Positions 55,986-64,000 of a stretch of DNA of 64,000 nt are shown one piece after another; the stretch's first letter is position 1; each line of letters begins with the position of its first letter. Source of the DNA: Dokdonella fugitiva. Lineage in GTDB: Bacteria; Pseudomonadota; Gammaproteobacteria; Xanthomonadales; Rhodanobacteraceae. Location: contig NZ_JACGXL010000001.1 in assembly GCF_014138265.1 (NCBI RefSeq), positions 248,001-312,000 on the forward strand. Direction: 5' to 3'. The notes beneath the pieces were generated by a model, which was not told where the DNA came from, searched no databases, and saw only the letters and a list, made by a program, of their open reading frames with translations. The translations under genes and the position numbers were made by a program.

Positions 55986-58343
55986 ATGTCGTTGCCCATC
56001 TATCGCTTCCGCAATTTCCGTCTCGACCCGCAGGCACGCGAGCTGTACAAGGACGACGAACTGGTCGCGCTACCGGTCAGCACGATCGATTGCCTCGTCT
56101 ACCTGATCCGCAACCGCGAGCGCTCGGTCGGCCGCGACGAACTCGTCGCCGCCGTATGGGGGCGCGCGGACAGCAGCGACGTCTCGCTCAGCCACGCGAT
56201 CATGCGGCTGCGCCGGCTGCTCGGCGACACCGGTAACGAACAGAACAGCATCCGCACCTTGCCCAGGCTCGGCTATCGATGGATCGTCGAGCCGACCGTC
56301 GAAGCATCCGAGGGACGATCGGCGGAGCCAATGGCCGCGGCGCCAGGGCCGGTCGACGCACCGATGCCGGCACCCACGCCGGCGAGCGCGACGCGCGCGC
56401 CTGGCGGACGCCCGCGGATTCGCGCGCTGCTCGCGTTCGCTGGCGCGCTGGTCGCGCTGGTCGCGATCGGATTCTTCCTCGTCGAACGTCGACCCGCCCC
56501 GCGCGCGACCGTGCCGATGGTCGCGGAGCGGCGCGCGCCGGCGATGGTGTTGCCGGCGCAGGTCGAAGCGAGCGGCGAATGGGCATGGCTGCGCCTCGGC
56601 TTCATGGATCTCGTCGCCAACCGGTTGCGCAAGGGCAACTTGGTCACCACGCCGAGCGAGAGCGTGCTCGGACTCGTCAACGCGCACCAGCTCGATGCGG
56701 GCATCGCCAGCCACACCGGCTCGAAGGCCCTGCTGATCCAGCCGCGCGTCGTGCTCGCGAACGCGACCTGGAGCGTGAGCCTCGAAGCGCGCGGCGACGG
56801 TCGCACCGTGCTCGCCGAAGGCCAGGCCACCGACGTGCTCGCGGCCGGCCGTGCGGCCGCGGACCAGCTTCTCGTGAAGCTCGGCCTGTCGCCGCCGCCG
56901 AGCGAGGAGACCGATCAGTCGCGCGCCGCCGAAGAGCTCGATCGCCGGGTCAGTGCCGCGGTGTTGTCGGGGCAGCTCGACTTGGCGCGCGCACTGATCA
57001 AGGACGCGCCTGCCACGGTGCAGGCGAGTCCCGAGATCGCGTTGAGCACGTCCGTGATCGAGTTCTTCGCGGGCGAGTACGAAGCGAGCCGGAAGCTCGC
57101 CGAGTCGGTGCTGGATCGCGTGCCGGCCGACCGCAACCCGCGCTTGCGCGCGCGCGCGTTGAACCGGCTCGGCGTCGCTCTGGTCCGGCTCGACCGCGAT
57201 ACCGAGGCCGACGCCGCGTTCGTCGAGGTCATTCAGTTGTTGCGCCTGCAGAATGATCCCGACCTGCTCGCGGCCGCCTACACCGGTCGCGGCGTCGTCG
57301 CCGGGCAGGCGCAGCGCCTCGACGAGGCCGCCGCGTTCTTCGGCCAGGCGCGCATGCTGCACGAAATGAGCAACGATGCATTCGGCGTCGCGCGCGTGGA
57401 TCTCAACCTCGGCGCCGTCGCGATGGATCGGGGACAGCCGGCGATCGCGGCGCCGATCTTCAGCGATGCAGCCGACCGCTTCCGCGTCCTAGCCACGCCC
57501 GAGGCGCTGAATTCGGCGTTGCGTTCGCTCGCCGACGCGCAGTCGATGCTGCTCGAGCACGACAAGGCGCTCGCGACGACCGACCGCTTCTGGCCGGTGG
57601 ACACCCATAGCCGCAACCCGCGCGAGGGCTGGTGGCTCACGCTCAGCCGCGCGGTCGCGCTCGCCGGCGCGGGCCGGCTGCGCGACGCGGATGACCTCGT
57701 CGCGCGCATCCGCGCGTCGAGCGATCCGACCACCGACGCGGTCGTGCGCATCGAAGCCGACGCGCTCGCCGCCGACCTCGCCCTCCTGCGTGGCGACCAT
57801 GCGCACGCCGTGGCGTTGGCAGGGAAGGCGTTGACGCCCGAACTCGAAAGCACGAACTGGCTCGACTACGAGGGCGCCTGGACCACGCGCATCCGCGCGC
57901 TCCAGCGCGCCGGCGACGTGACCTCCGCCGCGGCCGAGATCAAGCGGCTGCGGGCGTGGGCAGACGCCGCATCCGGAGATCGGCGCTCGCTCTACGTCGA
58001 ACTGCTCGAAGCGGACCAGGCGCGCCTCGAAGGCAGCGTGGAGCCCGCGCTGCAGGGGTACGCGGCGGCGATGACGCGAGCGGAGCGCCTCGGCATCCCC
58101 GAAGACATCGTCGTCGTCGGCCAGTCGTACGTCGAAGCGCTGCTCGCTGCGGGACGCGTCGAGCAGGCCAGCGCGATCGGCGGTCGCCTCGCACCGTGGT
58201 CGAACCAGGACATGCGGGCGAGCTGGGTGCAGGCCCAGGTCTACCAGGCCTTGCGCAAGGACGATGCTGCGCGCGCGGCGCTCGAGCGGGCGCGCCAGCT
58301 CGCGGGCGAGCGCGTCCTTCCCGCAACGACGGCAAGCCACTGA
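55986..58343 (+). CDS. CadC-like membrane regulator with OmpR-type winged helix and TPRs
   Basis: A 785-residue one-component regulator. Residues about 1-100 are a Trans_reg_C winged helix (FRLDPQARELYKDDELVALP, RSVGRDELVAAVWG, SDVSLSHAIMRLRRLLGD, RTLPRLGYRWI). A Pro/Ala-rich linker leads to one membrane segment (about 141-160, RALLAFAGALVALVAIGFFLV). The extracytoplasmic or large C-terminal part is built mainly from TPR-like helices (for example LAAAYTGRGVVAGQAQRLDEAAAFFGQA). Such regulators bind DNA directly from the membrane. A direct-repeat array fit for a winged helix lies just downstream. Confidence 0.88.
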   Translation: MSLPIYRFRNFRLDPQARELYKDDELVALPVSTIDCLVYLIRNRERSVGRDELVAAVWGRADSSDVSLSHAIMRLRRLLGDTGNEQNSIRTLPRLGYRWIVEPTVEASEGRSAEPMAAAPGPVDAPMPAPTPASATRAPGGRPRIRALLAFAGALVALVAIGFFLVERRPAPRATVPMVAERRAPAMVLPAQVEASGEWAWLRLGFMDLVANRLRKGNLVTTPSESVLGLVNAHQLDAGIASHTGSKALLIQPRVVLANATWSVSLEARGDGRTVLAEGQATDVLAAGRAAADQLLVKLGLSPPPSEETDQSRAAEELDRRVSAAVLSGQLDLARALIKDAPATVQASPEIALSTSVIEFFAGEYEASRKLAESVLDRVPADRNPRLRARALNRLGVALVRLDRDTEADAAFVEVIQLLRLQNDPDLLAAAYTGRGVVAGQAQRLDEAAAFFGQARMLHEMSNDAFGVARVDLNLGAVAMDRGQPAIAAPIFSDAADRFRVLATPEALNSALRSLADAQSMLLEHDKALATTDRFWPVDTHSRNPREGWWLTLSRAVALAGAGRLRDADDLVARIRASSDPTTDAVVRIEADALAADLALLRGDHAHAVALAGKALTPELESTNWLDYEGAWTTRIRALQRAGDVTSAAAEIKRLRAWADAASGDRRSLYVELLEADQARLEGSVEPALQGYAAAMTRAERLGIPEDIVVVGQSYVEALLAAGRVEQASAIGGRLAPWSNQDMRASWVQAQVYQALRKDDAARAALERARQLAGERVLPATTASH

Positions 58344-58362: not shown

Positions 58363-58406
58363 TTCTACAAGCGCCGCTCAAGCCTCCTACAAGACTTCTA
58401 CAAGCG
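58363..58406 (+). promoter_or_regulatory. Four tandem 11-bp direct repeats with CAAG core
   Basis: Four consecutive 11-mers: TTCTACAAGCG (58363), CCGCTCAAGCC (58374), TCCTACAAGAC (58385), TTCTACAAGCG (58396). The first and last are identical and CAAG falls at the same phase in all four. An 11-bp period is one helical turn, the arrangement used by OmpR/PhoB-type winged-helix proteins that bind head to tail. It lies 20 bp after the gene of such a regulator and about 145 bp before the secreted-protein gene at 58551. Confidence 0.75.
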
Positions 58407-58550
58407 CACCGCGCCGGCTGCGTCCACCCTGCATCGACCGCCGACATGCGGCGGACATGCGCAGGCCCGACCGGAGCGTCGAGCCCGAAAGAAGGTCAGG
58501 CGTCGCGGTCCTGGGCGGGCCGTGGACGACATCTGCAGTGGGGTACGTTG

Positions 58551-61487
58551 ATGAAAGTCCTGCCATATCTCGGCCGCGTGCTGCCGGCTGCCGCGCTCAC
58601 GCTGCTCGCTGCAGGCGTGACGGCGCAGCCGCTGCCGCGCACGAGCATGAACAAGGCGAGCGCCGGGCACGCGTTCACGCTCGGCACCGCACCCGTGAAG
58701 CAACCCGGCGGCGTCGCCGGCGGCAGCTGCGCGCCGGACGGACTCTGCCTCGCCGTCACGCTTGCCCTGGCCGATCCGGGCGATCCGAACCTGTGCGGAA
58801 CAGCGACCGATCTCGCGGTCGACGTCGGCGACGAGGTCGACGTCTGTTACACCGTGACCAACCAGTCCGCGACGACGCTCAACTACCACACCCTCGTCGA
58901 CGATCATGTCGGGCAGCTGCTGACCAATTCGAACGTCGTGCTCGCGCCGGGCGCGACCTACCGCTACCACCGCGTGATCGTCGCGAGCGCGAGTCCGGGC
59001 CACGACAACGGCACGTTCACGTCGACCTGGACCGCGAGCGACGCCCTCGCCGGCTACAGCGCGAACGCATCGGCGCCGTACGCTTTCGTCGACGTCAGCG
59101 CGAGCGGCACCGCGCTCAACCTCAGCGACGACGGCGCCGCGGCGGTCACGATGCCGTTCGCCTTTCCGTTCTACGGAACCGCGTCGAGCGACCTGTGCAT
59201 CGGCAACAACGGCGGCCTCTACTTCGGGCTGTCGTCCTGCTCCGCGTTCCCGTACAACAACACCGCGCTGCCGTCGTCCGGACTGAACAACCCGGCGATC
59301 CTGCCGTACTGGGACGACATGCTGCCGAACGGCACGATCTACTACGCCACGCTCGGCAGCGCGCCGAACCGGCAGTTCGTGGTCGAGTACAAGAACAAGT
59401 TCAGCTACGGCGACAACGGCGACCCGACCGGTCAGACCGGCGCGACGTTCGAGGTCATCCTCGACGAGGCCGACGGCTCGATCGATTTCGAATACCAGAC
59501 GACGAGCTTCGGCGGCGCCGGCGCGGGGTACGACAACGGCGTCTCGGCCACGGTCGGCCTGCAGTCGAACGGCTCGTTCGCGAACCAGTACTCCTACGAC
59601 AGCGCGAGCCTGCACGACGGCCTCGCGATCGCGTGGACACCGGCCAATCCGACCAGCTACAGCGCGACGGCGGCGGCGACGCTCGACGTCGGCACGCCGA
59701 CGATGATCACGACGCCCAATGCTGCCACCGGCTTCACGCCGAGCGTGCCCGCGGGCAGCAGCACGAGCGCGCCCCTGTCGATCGACAACATCGGCAACCG
59801 CGACCTCGTCTGGAGCATGACGCCGCCGGCCGCGAACGCGCACTTCCCGAAGACGCCGCGCACGAGCGTGCCGTTCCACGGCCCGTGGGACGGTGTCGGC
59901 GTGTCGCCGGACAGCGCCCGCCGCGCGTCGAAGTCGAAGGTGCACGCGCCCGCGGGCACGATGCAGGTGCCGGTCTACGCGACGCAGGTCACCGTGAACG
60001 GGGCCGACTACGTGAGCTTCGACGCGGCGGCACCGTCGACGTCGAACGTCATCCTCGCCGACAGCCCCCCGCTGTTCGGCATCACTTTCGTCGACAACGA
60101 CTTCAGCAAGCAATACGGCGTCGACTACTTCGAAGGCAAGCTCTACACGATCAGCACGCTCGACGGCAGCACGACGGTCGTCGGCAGCACAGGGCTCGTG
60201 AGCTGCTGCATCGTCGAGCCGGGCGGCATGCGCTGGGATCCGACCAGCGGAACGACCTATCTCGTCATCGACGACTTCCGCAGCGCGTCGCGCTCGAGCA
60301 CCCTCTACACGATCGACCTCGCGACGGCCGCCACCACGCTGGTCGGCACGCTCGGCGGCATGATCCGCGACATCACGTTCGACCGCAGTGGCCTCATGTA
60401 CGGCATCGATTCGGACGGCGACGCGCTCGTCGCGATCGACAAGACCAACGCCGCGACCCAGGTGATCGGCTCGCTCGGCTTCGACGCGGTGTTCGGCCAG
60501 GGGCTCGATTTCGACGCCGAAACCGGAGTGCTCTATCTCGCCAGCGCGGACGAGACGAGCCGCGTCATGTACACGGTCGATCCGCTGACCGGCGCGGCGA
60601 CCGCGATCAGCGACATGGCGAGCGAAGTCGACAGCATGGCGATCGCGAAGTCGGGTGCGGTGTGCGCGACGCCGGCGGACACGCCGTGGCTCGGCTACGA
60701 CATCGCCGGCGGCACGGTCACGCCGGACCCGGAACAGGCGCATCCCACGACGGTCAACGTCACGTTCGATGCGGCAGCGCTCGCCCCGGGTGACTACGAC
60801 GCGAACCTCTGCGTCTACAGCAACGACCTCTCGCACAGCCGCGTCGCGATCCCGGTGCACCTGACCGTCGGGCCGGCGCAACCGGTCGACACGATCTTCG
60901 CGGACGGCTTCGACGGGGCCGGTGGCGGCGGGGCGACGACGCTCGCGCAGACCGCAGCCAGCACGCCGATCGCGCAGAACTCCGCCGCCTGCGGCGACAG
61001 CGCGAGCGGCACGACCGCGGACAACCAGTACTGGCGCCGCTATTACTTCAGCGAGTATGCGCTGACCTCGCCGGTGCACGTGTCGAGCGTCGACGTTTCG
61101 GTCGAACAGACGAACGGAGCGCCCGGCGTCACCGTCACGCTGTACACGATCCCGCACGGCGTCGCGGTCGACACCATCGACACCGCGCAGTTGACCCAGG
61201 TCGGCCAGGCGGCGACGACCGCGCCGGCCGGCTCGGCGCTGACCAGCATCAACGTGCCGGTCTCGGGCACGGTGGCCGACACGGTCGCGAACGACCTCGT
61301 CGTCGAAGTCTCGACCGAGGATGGCAGCGGTGACGGCACGGCGTTCTACATCGGCTCGACGACGGCGGCGGAAACGCACCCGAGCTTCCTGAGCTCGACC
61401 GCGTGCGGCCTCGCCGCGCCGGCGACGACGGCATCGATCGGCTTCCCGGGGATGCACGTCATCCAGGGCGTCAACATCGACGGCTGA
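58551..61487 (+). CDS. Large secreted multidomain protein with internal ADGFD tag
   Basis: A 978-residue exported protein. The signal peptide is about 1-25 (GRVLPAAALTLLAAGVTAQP). A region near 70-190 holds a DUF-like beta domain (VGDEVDVCYTVTNQSATTLNYH); near 195-350 is a sandwich with the YCF-type VTMPFAFPFYG and IGNNGGLYFG; BACON/Ig-like and DUF4394-like stretches (MYGIDSDGDALVAIDKTNAATQ) follow. VDTIFADGFDGAGGGG near 779-794 is the tag usually found at the very end; here about 185 residues of a further beta domain follow it. The frame opens at 58446; I chose the ATG at 58551, which starts the signal peptide. Function unknown; adhesion or extracellular binding suggested. Confidence 0.8.
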   Translation: MKVLPYLGRVLPAAALTLLAAGVTAQPLPRTSMNKASAGHAFTLGTAPVKQPGGVAGGSCAPDGLCLAVTLALADPGDPNLCGTATDLAVDVGDEVDVCYTVTNQSATTLNYHTLVDDHVGQLLTNSNVVLAPGATYRYHRVIVASASPGHDNGTFTSTWTASDALAGYSANASAPYAFVDVSASGTALNLSDDGAAAVTMPFAFPFYGTASSDLCIGNNGGLYFGLSSCSAFPYNNTALPSSGLNNPAILPYWDDMLPNGTIYYATLGSAPNRQFVVEYKNKFSYGDNGDPTGQTGATFEVILDEADGSIDFEYQTTSFGGAGAGYDNGVSATVGLQSNGSFANQYSYDSASLHDGLAIAWTPANPTSYSATAAATLDVGTPTMITTPNAATGFTPSVPAGSSTSAPLSIDNIGNRDLVWSMTPPAANAHFPKTPRTSVPFHGPWDGVGVSPDSARRASKSKVHAPAGTMQVPVYATQVTVNGADYVSFDAAAPSTSNVILADSPPLFGITFVDNDFSKQYGVDYFEGKLYTISTLDGSTTVVGSTGLVSCCIVEPGGMRWDPTSGTTYLVIDDFRSASRSSTLYTIDLATAATTLVGTLGGMIRDITFDRSGLMYGIDSDGDALVAIDKTNAATQVIGSLGFDAVFGQGLDFDAETGVLYLASADETSRVMYTVDPLTGAATAISDMASEVDSMAIAKSGAVCATPADTPWLGYDIAGGTVTPDPEQAHPTTVNVTFDAAALAPGDYDANLCVYSNDLSHSRVAIPVHLTVGPAQPVDTIFADGFDGAGGGGATTLAQTAASTPIAQNSAACGDSASGTTADNQYWRRYYFSEYALTSPVHVSSVDVSVEQTNGAPGVTVTLYTIPHGVAVDTIDTAQLTQVGQAATTAPAGSALTSINVPVSGTVADTVANDLVVEVSTEDGSGDGTAFYIGSTTAAETHPSFLSSTACGLAAPATTASIGFPGMHVIQGVNIDG

Positions 61488-61567: not shown

Positions 61568-61619
61568 TCACGACGAGCTCGCGCGCCGTGCGCGCGACCA
61601 CGCTTCGAGGACCATGACC

Positions 61620-64000
61620 ATGCGCAACTCCCTCGCGACGGCGATCGCCGTCGTGCTGTGCGCCGCGAGCGACGCGTCCGTTTTCGCTCCTGCGTCGGCG
61701 ACCACGCCGACGCCGGCGACCCGCAAGCTGCTGGTGCCTGCCGATGCGCCGATGTCCGGCGCTGGCGTGCGCCTGCTGCAGGATTACGGCAGCTTCGCGC
61801 TGTACGACGTCGCGGGCACGCAGGCGACCGTGGACGGCGCGGTCGTCGCCTCGGACGTGCTGCGGTTCACCGCGCACCCGTTCGACACGCGCGACGGAAC
61901 GCCCGCGGCACCGGCGCCGTTCTCGCTGCAGGCGCCGGCCGGAGCGTCGCTGCAGGTCGTGCAGTTCGTCGGCCCCGTGCGCAAGGCCTGGCTCGACGCG
62001 CTCGCTGCACGCGGCATCGTGCCGGTGCAGTACGTCGCCGATCACGGCTACCTCGTCTGGGCCGACGCGCAGGCGCAGGCGCGGCTCGCGCGGCTGCGCG
62101 ACACGACGAGCTGGCTGCAGTACGCGGCGCCGTACTACGGTTTCCTCAAAGTCGATCCGCGACTGCAGCAGCGCCTCGACGCGAACGCGGCGTCGAACGA
62201 CGAAGTCGACGTGACGGTGCAGGTGTATCGCCACGCCGGCGTCGACGCCACCCGTCGCTTCGTGCAGGAGCGGGCGCTGCTGCCGCCGGCGCGGCAGGCG
62301 CCGCTCGGTGCGGGCATGTCCGACGTCCGCTGGACGCCGATCCTCGCGTTCGAGAACGCATCGCTGCGCGTGCGCGTCGCCGACGTCGCGGCGATCGCCG
62401 AACGGTCCGACGTGACCTTCGTCGGCGAGACGCCGGCGTTCAAGCTCATGGACGAGAAGCAGGACGTGATCCTCGCCGGCGATCTCGCGCCGACGCCGGC
62501 ATCGGTCGGCTACCTGCAGTTCCTGCTCGATCGCGGCTTCAGCCGGGACCCGGGCGCGTATCCTGTCGTCGATCTCACCGACAGCACGATCGACGAAGGC
62601 GGCAGCGGCGTGACGGTGCTGAACACCGCGGACGTCAAGCTGCACGTCGATGGCGACGCCGCACAGCCGTCGCGCGTCGCGTACTTCCACAATTGCTCGT
62701 CGACGCCGGACGCGCAGGTCGGCGCGATCGACGGGCACGGTTCGCTCAACGCCGGCATCGTCGTCGGCTACGACCAGCGCGGCGGATCGCCGTACCAGGA
62801 CGCGTCGGGCTTCCAGCTCGGACTGGGCGTGAATCCGTTCGGTCGCATCGGCTCGACCGCGATCTTCGTGCCGGGCTTCGACACGAGCGCGTGCGGCGAC
62901 AGCGCGCAAGGCCTCATTGCCGCGAACGCGCAGAACGGCGCGAAGATCAGCAGCAACTCGTGGGGTGCCAACCCGCCGCCGCTCACCTACGACGCGGTCG
63001 ACCAGGCCTACGACGCGGGCGTGCGCGATGCCGACGCCACCCGCGCGGGCAACCAGGAAATGATCTACGTCGTCGCCGCGGCGAACTCCGGCCCGAATGC
63101 GGCGACGATCTCGTCGCCGGCCGCAGGCAAGAACGTCATCACCGTAGGCGCGTCGGAGAACGTGCGTCCCGACTGGACCGACGGCTGCGGCGCCGGGCCG
63201 TCCGACGCGAACGACGCGAACGATGTCGCGCGCTTTTCGAGCCGTGGTCCGGCGCCCGGCAACCGCGTGAAGCCCGAGCTCATCGCGCCGGGCTCGCACG
63301 TCCAGTCCGGCGCGAGCAACTATGCGGGTTACACCGGCGAAGGCGTGTGCGACCCGTACCATCCCGCGGGGCAGACCGAGTTCGCCGCGTCGTCGGGTAC
63401 GAGCCATTCGACGCCGGCGGTGTCGGGTATCGCGTCGCTCGCGTACTGGTGGATCGAGCAGGGCGGTGCCGGTGCAGGCGCCGGCAGCGTCGTCGAGGTC
63501 GGCGACGCACGCGCACCGAGTCCGGCGCTGATGAAAGCGTGGCTGATGGCGCACCCGAGCTACCTCACCGGTGTCGACGCGAACGACGACCTGCCGAGCA
63601 ACGCGCAGGGTTTCGGTATGCCGAACCTGCGCGACATGTTCGACGCGACGCCGAAGATCGTGCTCGACCAGAGCGACCTCGTCACCGCCAGCGGCGAGAC
63701 GCGCAGCTACATCTGGGGCGTCGCCGATCCCGCGCGGCCGCTGCGCGTCGCACTCGCCTACACCGACGCGCCGGGCGCGCTCGGTACAAGCCCGCAGGTC
63801 AACGATCTCGACCTCGCGGTCGCGGTGGGCGGGCAGGCGTATCTCGGCAACCATTTCGACCACCAGTGGAGCACGACCGGCGGCGTTCCCGACGCGCTGG
63901 ACAACTACGAAGCCGTGTTCCTGCCGCCGGGACGTTCCGGCGAAGTCGCGGTGACCGTGCTCGCGCGCAACATCGCCGGCGACGCGACCAACAGCGGCAC
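61620..64000 (+). CDS. S8 (subtilisin) family secreted serine protease, 3' truncated
   Basis: The frame is open from 61614 to the window end; about 793 residues are visible. A signal peptide (MRNSLATAIAVVLCAASDASVFAPASA) precedes a long N-terminal pro-region of roughly 300 residues. Catalytic residues are Asp321 (LTDSTIDEG), His373 (GHGSLNAGI) and Ser595 (SGTSHSTPAVSG), with the oxyanion Asn in VAAANSGPN. A P/homoB-like beta domain (TASGETRSYIWGVADP) follows. GAGGA at 61607-61611 fits the ATG at 61620 (8 bases) better than the ATG at 61614 (2 bases). It may form a secretion cluster with the preceding gene. Confidence 0.88.
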   Translation, partial: MRNSLATAIAVVLCAASDASVFAPASATTPTPATRKLLVPADAPMSGAGVRLLQDYGSFALYDVAGTQATVDGAVVASDVLRFTAHPFDTRDGTPAAPAPFSLQAPAGASLQVVQFVGPVRKAWLDALAARGIVPVQYVADHGYLVWADAQAQARLARLRDTTSWLQYAAPYYGFLKVDPRLQQRLDANAASNDEVDVTVQVYRHAGVDATRRFVQERALLPPARQAPLGAGMSDVRWTPILAFENASLRVRVADVAAIAERSDVTFVGETPAFKLMDEKQDVILAGDLAPTPASVGYLQFLLDRGFSRDPGAYPVVDLTDSTIDEGGSGVTVLNTADVKLHVDGDAAQPSRVAYFHNCSSTPDAQVGAIDGHGSLNAGIVVGYDQRGGSPYQDASGFQLGLGVNPFGRIGSTAIFVPGFDTSACGDSAQGLIAANAQNGAKISSNSWGANPPPLTYDAVDQAYDAGVRDADATRAGNQEMIYVVAAANSGPNAATISSPAAGKNVITVGASENVRPDWTDGCGAGPSDANDANDVARFSSRGPAPGNRVKPELIAPGSHVQSGASNYAGYTGEGVCDPYHPAGQTEFAASSGTSHSTPAVSGIASLAYWWIEQGGAGAGAGSVVEVGDARAPSPALMKAWLMAHPSYLTGVDANDDLPSNAQGFGMPNLRDMFDATPKIVLDQSDLVTASGETRSYIWGVADPARPLRVALAYTDAPGALGTSPQVNDLDLAVAVGGQAYLGNHFDHQWSTTGGVPDALDNYEAVFLPPGRSGEVAVTVLARNIAGDATNSG

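Follow-up and report, generated by a model that had tools for sequence, protein, structure and literature searches.

Four 11-bp direct repeats lie between a regulator gene and a secreted-type gene in the 64,000-nucleotide stretch of Dokdonella fugitiva DNA analysed here (the window), and we consider it highly likely that they are the activator-binding site of the neighbouring membrane regulator in the promoter of the secreted gene at 58551. The array, its phasing, its tie to the regulator and the secreted gene, the subclade-specific cores and the spacing to a -10-like element are all computed results. An initial annotation of this DNA had surmised that the winged helix of the regulator reads the array and that the array controls the secreted gene. 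Comparative evidence now supports this link well, since 11 bp is the sole spacing enriched beside regulators of this kind and is enriched where a secreted-type gene follows, since none of 11 homologous secreted genes without such a regulator showed an array, and since the core follows the regulator subclade, with a -10-like element at a fixed distance. The features concerned are:

55986..58343, + strand: one-component regulator of 785 amino acids, probably membrane-anchored, with an OmpR/CadC-type winged helix, a linker, a probable transmembrane segment and a C-terminal TPR region
56172..56222, + strand: residues 63-79 of the regulator (SSDVSLSHAIMRLRRLL), the presumed recognition-helix segment by analogy with PhoB/OmpR structures
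58363..58406, + strand: four 11-bp direct repeats with an ACAAG/TCAAG core, the proposed operator, at predicted positions -74 to -31
58425..58430, + strand: -10-like hexamer CACCCT, beginning 25 bp past the point where the last ACAAG core starts
58440..58461, + strand: two extra ACATG units in the 11-bp phase of the array, just 3' of the predicted start site
58551..61487, + strand: proposed target, 978 amino acids, with a signal-peptide-like N-terminus and a DUF4394 match
61614..64000, + strand: second open reading frame with a hydrophobic N-terminus, running past the window edge

The regulator, the array and the downstream genes

Re-reading of positions 58363-58406 (TTCTACAAGCG CCGCTCAAGCC TCCTACAAGAC TTCTACAAGCG) confirmed that four 11-mers share CAAG at an exact 11-bp spacing and that the outer pair is identical, as first annotated. 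The three-unit lag-11 score of the DNA 3' of the window regulator was matched by 0/200 and 1/200 dinucleotide shuffles in two runs. Moreover, the DNA from the regulator stop to the secreted gene holds six ACA triplets, of which five fall in a single 11-bp phase (58367, 58389, 58400, 58444 and 58455; p=0.001, 1000 shuffles), the two at 58444 and 58455 lying beyond the coordinates originally given to the array. In a genome-wide scan for privacy, which covered the window's motif only, TACAWG-N5-TACAWG had two mismatch-free occurrences in the 4.77-Mb genome, one in the window and one beside a paralogous regulator (C2:196676), and matched five further places with one mismatch, the reversed control giving two matches. 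The looser CTACAAG-N4-CTACAAG, with up to two mismatches, was found at three places in the same genome versus nine for its reversed control, and such loose matches are therefore uninformative.

The preceding gene had been described as a winged helix fused to a membrane segment and TPRs. Pfam bears out the winged helix (Trans_reg_C, residues 27-98, E=3.6e-13, 49.8 bits and thus above the gathering cut-off of 26.2) and the TPRs (TPR_12, E=1.9e-9), while the membrane segment stands as probable, being a hydrophobic stretch at about residues 146-166 found by eye. In a comparison of the winged helix with PDB structures CadC was nearest, followed by ToxR and OmpR-type domains; against the CadC equivalog model of NCBIfam (NF007540), the regulator scored 37.4 bits, below the 400 required. 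A Pfam scan of the regulator found neither a BTA domain behind the OmpR domain nor a receiver domain. Of the downstream genes, first described as encoding secreted proteins, the one at 58551 has a signal-peptide-like start by a simple hydrophobicity heuristic, and the one at 61614 has a hydrophobic N-terminus. The proposed target had its DUF4394 match in Pfam and none in NCBIfam at E<=0.1, and no array was seen by eye before the 61614-64000 reading frame.

Distribution of the regulators

A search of the genome itself gave 33 regulator matches at E<=0.001, a count in which one gene figures as two pieces, and 20 at E<=1e-30, the window's gene counted in. At the latter level, 15 of 16 genomes of the genus had a match, and one congener (G009) had 40, some of them fragments. 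Dokdonella belongs to the Rhodanobacteraceae, and the family search found a match at E<=1e-60 in 34 of 147 genomes and 9 of 26 genera. Among the 274 genomes of the class search only the own genome had a match at E<=1e-40, and since scoring there was limited to three candidates per genome at the most, absence outside is weak evidence. For family-wide analysis we collected 149 places, from which one without a stop and one duplicate were removed; the 147 regulators that remain represent 15 genomes of the genus and 20 from outside it, 35 in all, and are the better matches of their genomes, not every match. A neighbour was called secreted-type by a heuristic based on a hydrophobic N-terminus and GC3, by which 110 of 141 called reading frames qualify and which misses some, for instance at locus L073, where an array and a hydrophobic N-terminus are both present.

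An 11-bp spacing is enriched just 3' of the regulators

Just 3' of the stop codon, the mean lag-11 z over 146 regulators was 1.45 versus -0.14 to 0.50 at other lags, and p<=2/200 was reached at lag 11 by 33 of them versus 0-7 at nine other lags (7-16). At the same level, lag-11 controls gave 1/146 upstream of the gene, 1/147 at the coding end and 0/147 at 450-700 bp downstream. We then used a likelihood array score, computed on the stretch before the next gene only with a threshold of >6, and found that among the regulators with a secreted-type neighbour it was exceeded at lag 11 in 65 of 110 versus 4-11 at six other lags; a score >10 was seen in 38 of the 110 versus 0-2. Without a secreted-type neighbour, only 4 of 37 regulators had an array score >6, and in a shuffle test the two groups differed likewise (49/110 with versus 2/36 without such a neighbour, p=6e-6). 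No array above threshold was present in 45 of the 110 regulators with a secreted-type neighbour. In the own genome, 14 of the 20 regulators had an array score >6, and the best 20 had a mean lag-11 z of 2.37 versus 0.06-0.41 at other lags from 8 to 14; the lag-11 signal was absent from the 12 weaker matches.

Several loci deserve separate mention. The relatives from other genera in the set (L102-L113 and L181-L193) had no array score >6 and mostly no called secreted neighbour, and these regulators may control something else. At L067 (5001-7438) the regulator reading frame is broken, and the GCGAAT-type repeats and the secreted neighbour persist. At L049 (G000:C1 near 1015800) a palindromic REP-like sequence and a repeated CTCCCACA with a 13-bp lag sit just past the regulator stop, between this paralogous regulator and its array.

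Arrays accompany secreted genes that adjoin a regulator

The closest homologues of the window target, in genomes G108 (52%) and G019 (50%), both adjoin orthologous regulators, and in each case three ACA lie in one 11-bp phase between the regulator and the target homologue (p=0.020 and 0.004, respectively). The initial annotation had expected the repeats to recur at orthologues of the target; they do so here as in-phase ACA, with general array scores of 3.8 and 3.1 that are under threshold. A third homologue, in G004 (47%), has no family regulator within 837 bp upstream and no array. Overall, homologous secreted genes without a family regulator upstream had arrays in 0 of 11 cases (444-1371 bp upstream examined), and those with one had arrays in 3 of 6, two of these three being already in the main set; in the same comparison three regulators followed by a secreted homologue have no array. 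Domain scanning covered 89 of the 110 target reading frames, many of them cut at the locus end, and revealed 22 with HAF repeats, 11 with LVIVD, 11 with DUF3466, 9 with delta-60 repeats, 7 with DUF5122, 6 with FG-GAP_2 and 4 with Kelch_3. Two single targets had other matches, one being class C beta-lactamase-like and one matching a model of the TcdB middle/N-terminal region.

The core is inherited together with the regulator subclade

A core was counted where three or more in-phase copies occurred at 11 bp, the cores having been chosen after the arrays were inspected. By this count, the ACA core is held by 11 of 12 regulators with the helix type of the window versus 1 of 98 others. The corresponding figures for a core's own subclade versus all others are 6/8 versus 0/102 for TCA, 7/7 versus 6/103 for CAT, 3/3 versus 3/107 for both TGA and GAAC, 6/8 versus 17/102 for GAA, 3/3 versus 31/107 for CGA and 1/6 versus 0/104 for TGGA. 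Within the clade of the window, L096 has just two in-phase ACA, the three of L175 are within the range of shuffles (p=0.15), and L095 and L176, the closest orthologues, have low general array scores. The first 75 bp past the L175 regulator stop (in G019) also hold five copies of ACAGC spaced by 10-11 bp, not strictly by 11.

In a partial Mantel test on 50 regulators, the helix had an effect over and above those of the C-terminus and of the remainder of the domain (r 0.18, p 0.001), and an effect of the C-terminus given the helix remained as well (r 0.17, p 0.001). With 63 arrays and 60 permutations at each of four limits, a kernel leave-one-out test of the helix gave z of 5.0-18.2. In a nearest-neighbour test with partners of <45% C-terminal identity, z was 6.1 for the helix and 9.5 and 9.7 for two C-terminal stretches; with partners of <38% identity, it was 1.0 for the helix and 4.9 and 3.2 for the C-terminal stretches. 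What we claim is therefore joint inheritance of regulator subclade and core, and not a proven helix code, because the nearest-neighbour test failed to bear out a helix effect. A recognition-helix code as a proven relation was rejected on this ground and as inseparable from shared descent.

Spacing between the last repeat and a -10-like element

We scored the tails of 39 arrays with a defined core for the form xAnnnT, in which A and T fall at +26 and +30, counted from where the last core starts, and are read as -11 and -7 of a -10 element. This form begins exactly 25 bp past the start of the last core in 24 of the 39, versus a mean of 0.8 at other distances from 12 to 41, the highest count among these, 7 at +37, being offset by one turn. 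When one or two further units were allowed, the +26 count became 30 and 32 of 39, respectively, the whole-turn distances climbing too. The xAnnnT form, the seven cores and the register of two of these seven (the CAT and GATCC-type groups) had been picked after inspecting the tails; the stricter consensus TAnnnT showed no favoured distance in the 39 tails. Held-out arrays with one further unit allowed (27 of 29, those with a conserved A column) gave 13 at +26 and 11 at +27, a peak spanning two neighbouring distances, and 0-2 at nine other distances. In the window, 18 bp separate the last 11-mer from the hexamer CACCCT, which is without the consensus first T. Because the -10-like element stands at a fixed family-wide distance that the window fits, the array very probably serves as an element of the promoter and spans -35, and from this spacing the transcription start is predicted near 58437, 114 bases 5' of the ATG at 58551.

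Comparison with known systems

Each part of the system is of a known kind. Head-to-tail binding to tandem direct repeats is known for OmpR-family proteins, and the PhoB and AfsR sites overlap -35 (PMC10936776, PMC3348028). CadC has an N-terminal OmpR-type winged helix, one transmembrane segment and C-terminal tetratricopeptide-type helices (PMC9214523), an order that the window regulator would share, its own probable transmembrane segment having been placed by eye. The CadC site that was studied, however, is an AT-rich region that includes a quasi-palindromic 17-mer, at -153 to -113 (PMC5430869), unlike the 11-bp array at -35 in the window. The SARP regulator AfsR is alike in its OmpR-type domain, its 11-bp direct repeats over -35 and the TPR of the large form, and differs in that the 3' repeat lies 8 bp from the -10 (PMC10936776), the window array standing about one turn further upstream. 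AfsR is also made up of OmpR-type, BTA, NOD and TPR parts, whereas the window regulator is without a BTA match and has a probable membrane segment. Tandem winged helices on direct repeats over -35 are likewise found at the pho box (PMC3348028). PhoB, however, serves one regulon, whereas here many paralogues have their own cores, and no receiver domain was matched. HilA/EilA, which combine an OmpR-type domain with TPR, are alike in that their NCBIfam model (NF009037) matches the N-terminal domain of the window regulator, far below the cut-off (27.1 bits of 589 required). HilA is not known to have a membrane segment. The initial annotation had not recognised the unit as described before. This holds for the expanded, privately matched regulator-promoter set, of which no description was found in the literature searched, most subscription journals being outside it, but not for the parts, which are well known.

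Proposed mechanism and alternatives

If the array is an activator site, the regulator would sit anchored in the inner membrane, and its OmpR-type winged helices would bind the array head to tail, one domain per 11-bp turn. With the last repeat over -35 and the -10-like element one fixed step 3', binding would recruit RNA polymerase, and signal reception would fall to the C-terminal TPR region, which is probably periplasmic. Binding, activation, membrane topology and signal are what we infer from sequence. The genome would hold about 20 such paralogous units, that of the window among them, and in many of these the core is spelled differently.

The same array and regulator might instead form a repressor site that silences the secreted gene until a periplasmic signal arrives, and the two in-phase ACATG units just 3' of the predicted start are where a bound protein would block transcription; yet the last unit stands family-wide at a fixed distance 5' of the -10-like element, over -35, which is the usual place of an activator, and we regard repression as unlikely. 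We attach still less weight to the idea that the arrays serve some other DNA-binding protein, for instance a response regulator of the PhoB kind, the wHTH-TPR gene being a bystander. Such a protein would suit some of the cores (TGTCA), which resemble the pho box, and 11-bp repeats are used by other OmpR-family proteins too; against it, the core tracks the subclade of the adjacent regulator, the 11 homologous secreted genes that lack the regulator showed no arrays, and the mismatch-free window motif occurs only here and beside a paralogue. As for random repetition in GC-rich DNA, an array of three short units carries little weight on its own, and shuffles do as well as many of the 147, but a strong enrichment at lag 11 alone, just 3' of regulators alone and with a fixed -10 spacing, makes coincidence exceedingly improbable. 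Activation by the neighbouring regulator is thus the reading that we prefer.

Implications

Regulators with OmpR-type winged helices rank among the most common in bacteria, and the rule that relates helix to site is difficult to extract as long as each protein has a single known site. Dozens of related regulators beside their own arrays, in a common promoter geometry, make a specificity code and the insulation of paralogues directly testable, and one bacterium with about 20 switches, many with their own landing strip, is a natural catalogue of regulator-promoter pairs. The arrays also offer a regulatory handle on a large and little-understood group of secreted proteins of the HAF, LVIVD, delta-60, FG-GAP and Kelch-type repeat kinds. 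It is quite possible, if somewhat short of probable, that Dokdonella and its relatives carry a large, radiating set of insulated membrane-to-promoter circuits, in which each wHTH-TM-TPR paralogue would read only its private array through a diverged helix and activate one adjacent secreted repeat or beta-propeller-type protein, the TPR sensing export or surface state. Such a set, if real, would amount to a naturally occurring library of the recognition code of OmpR-type winged helices.
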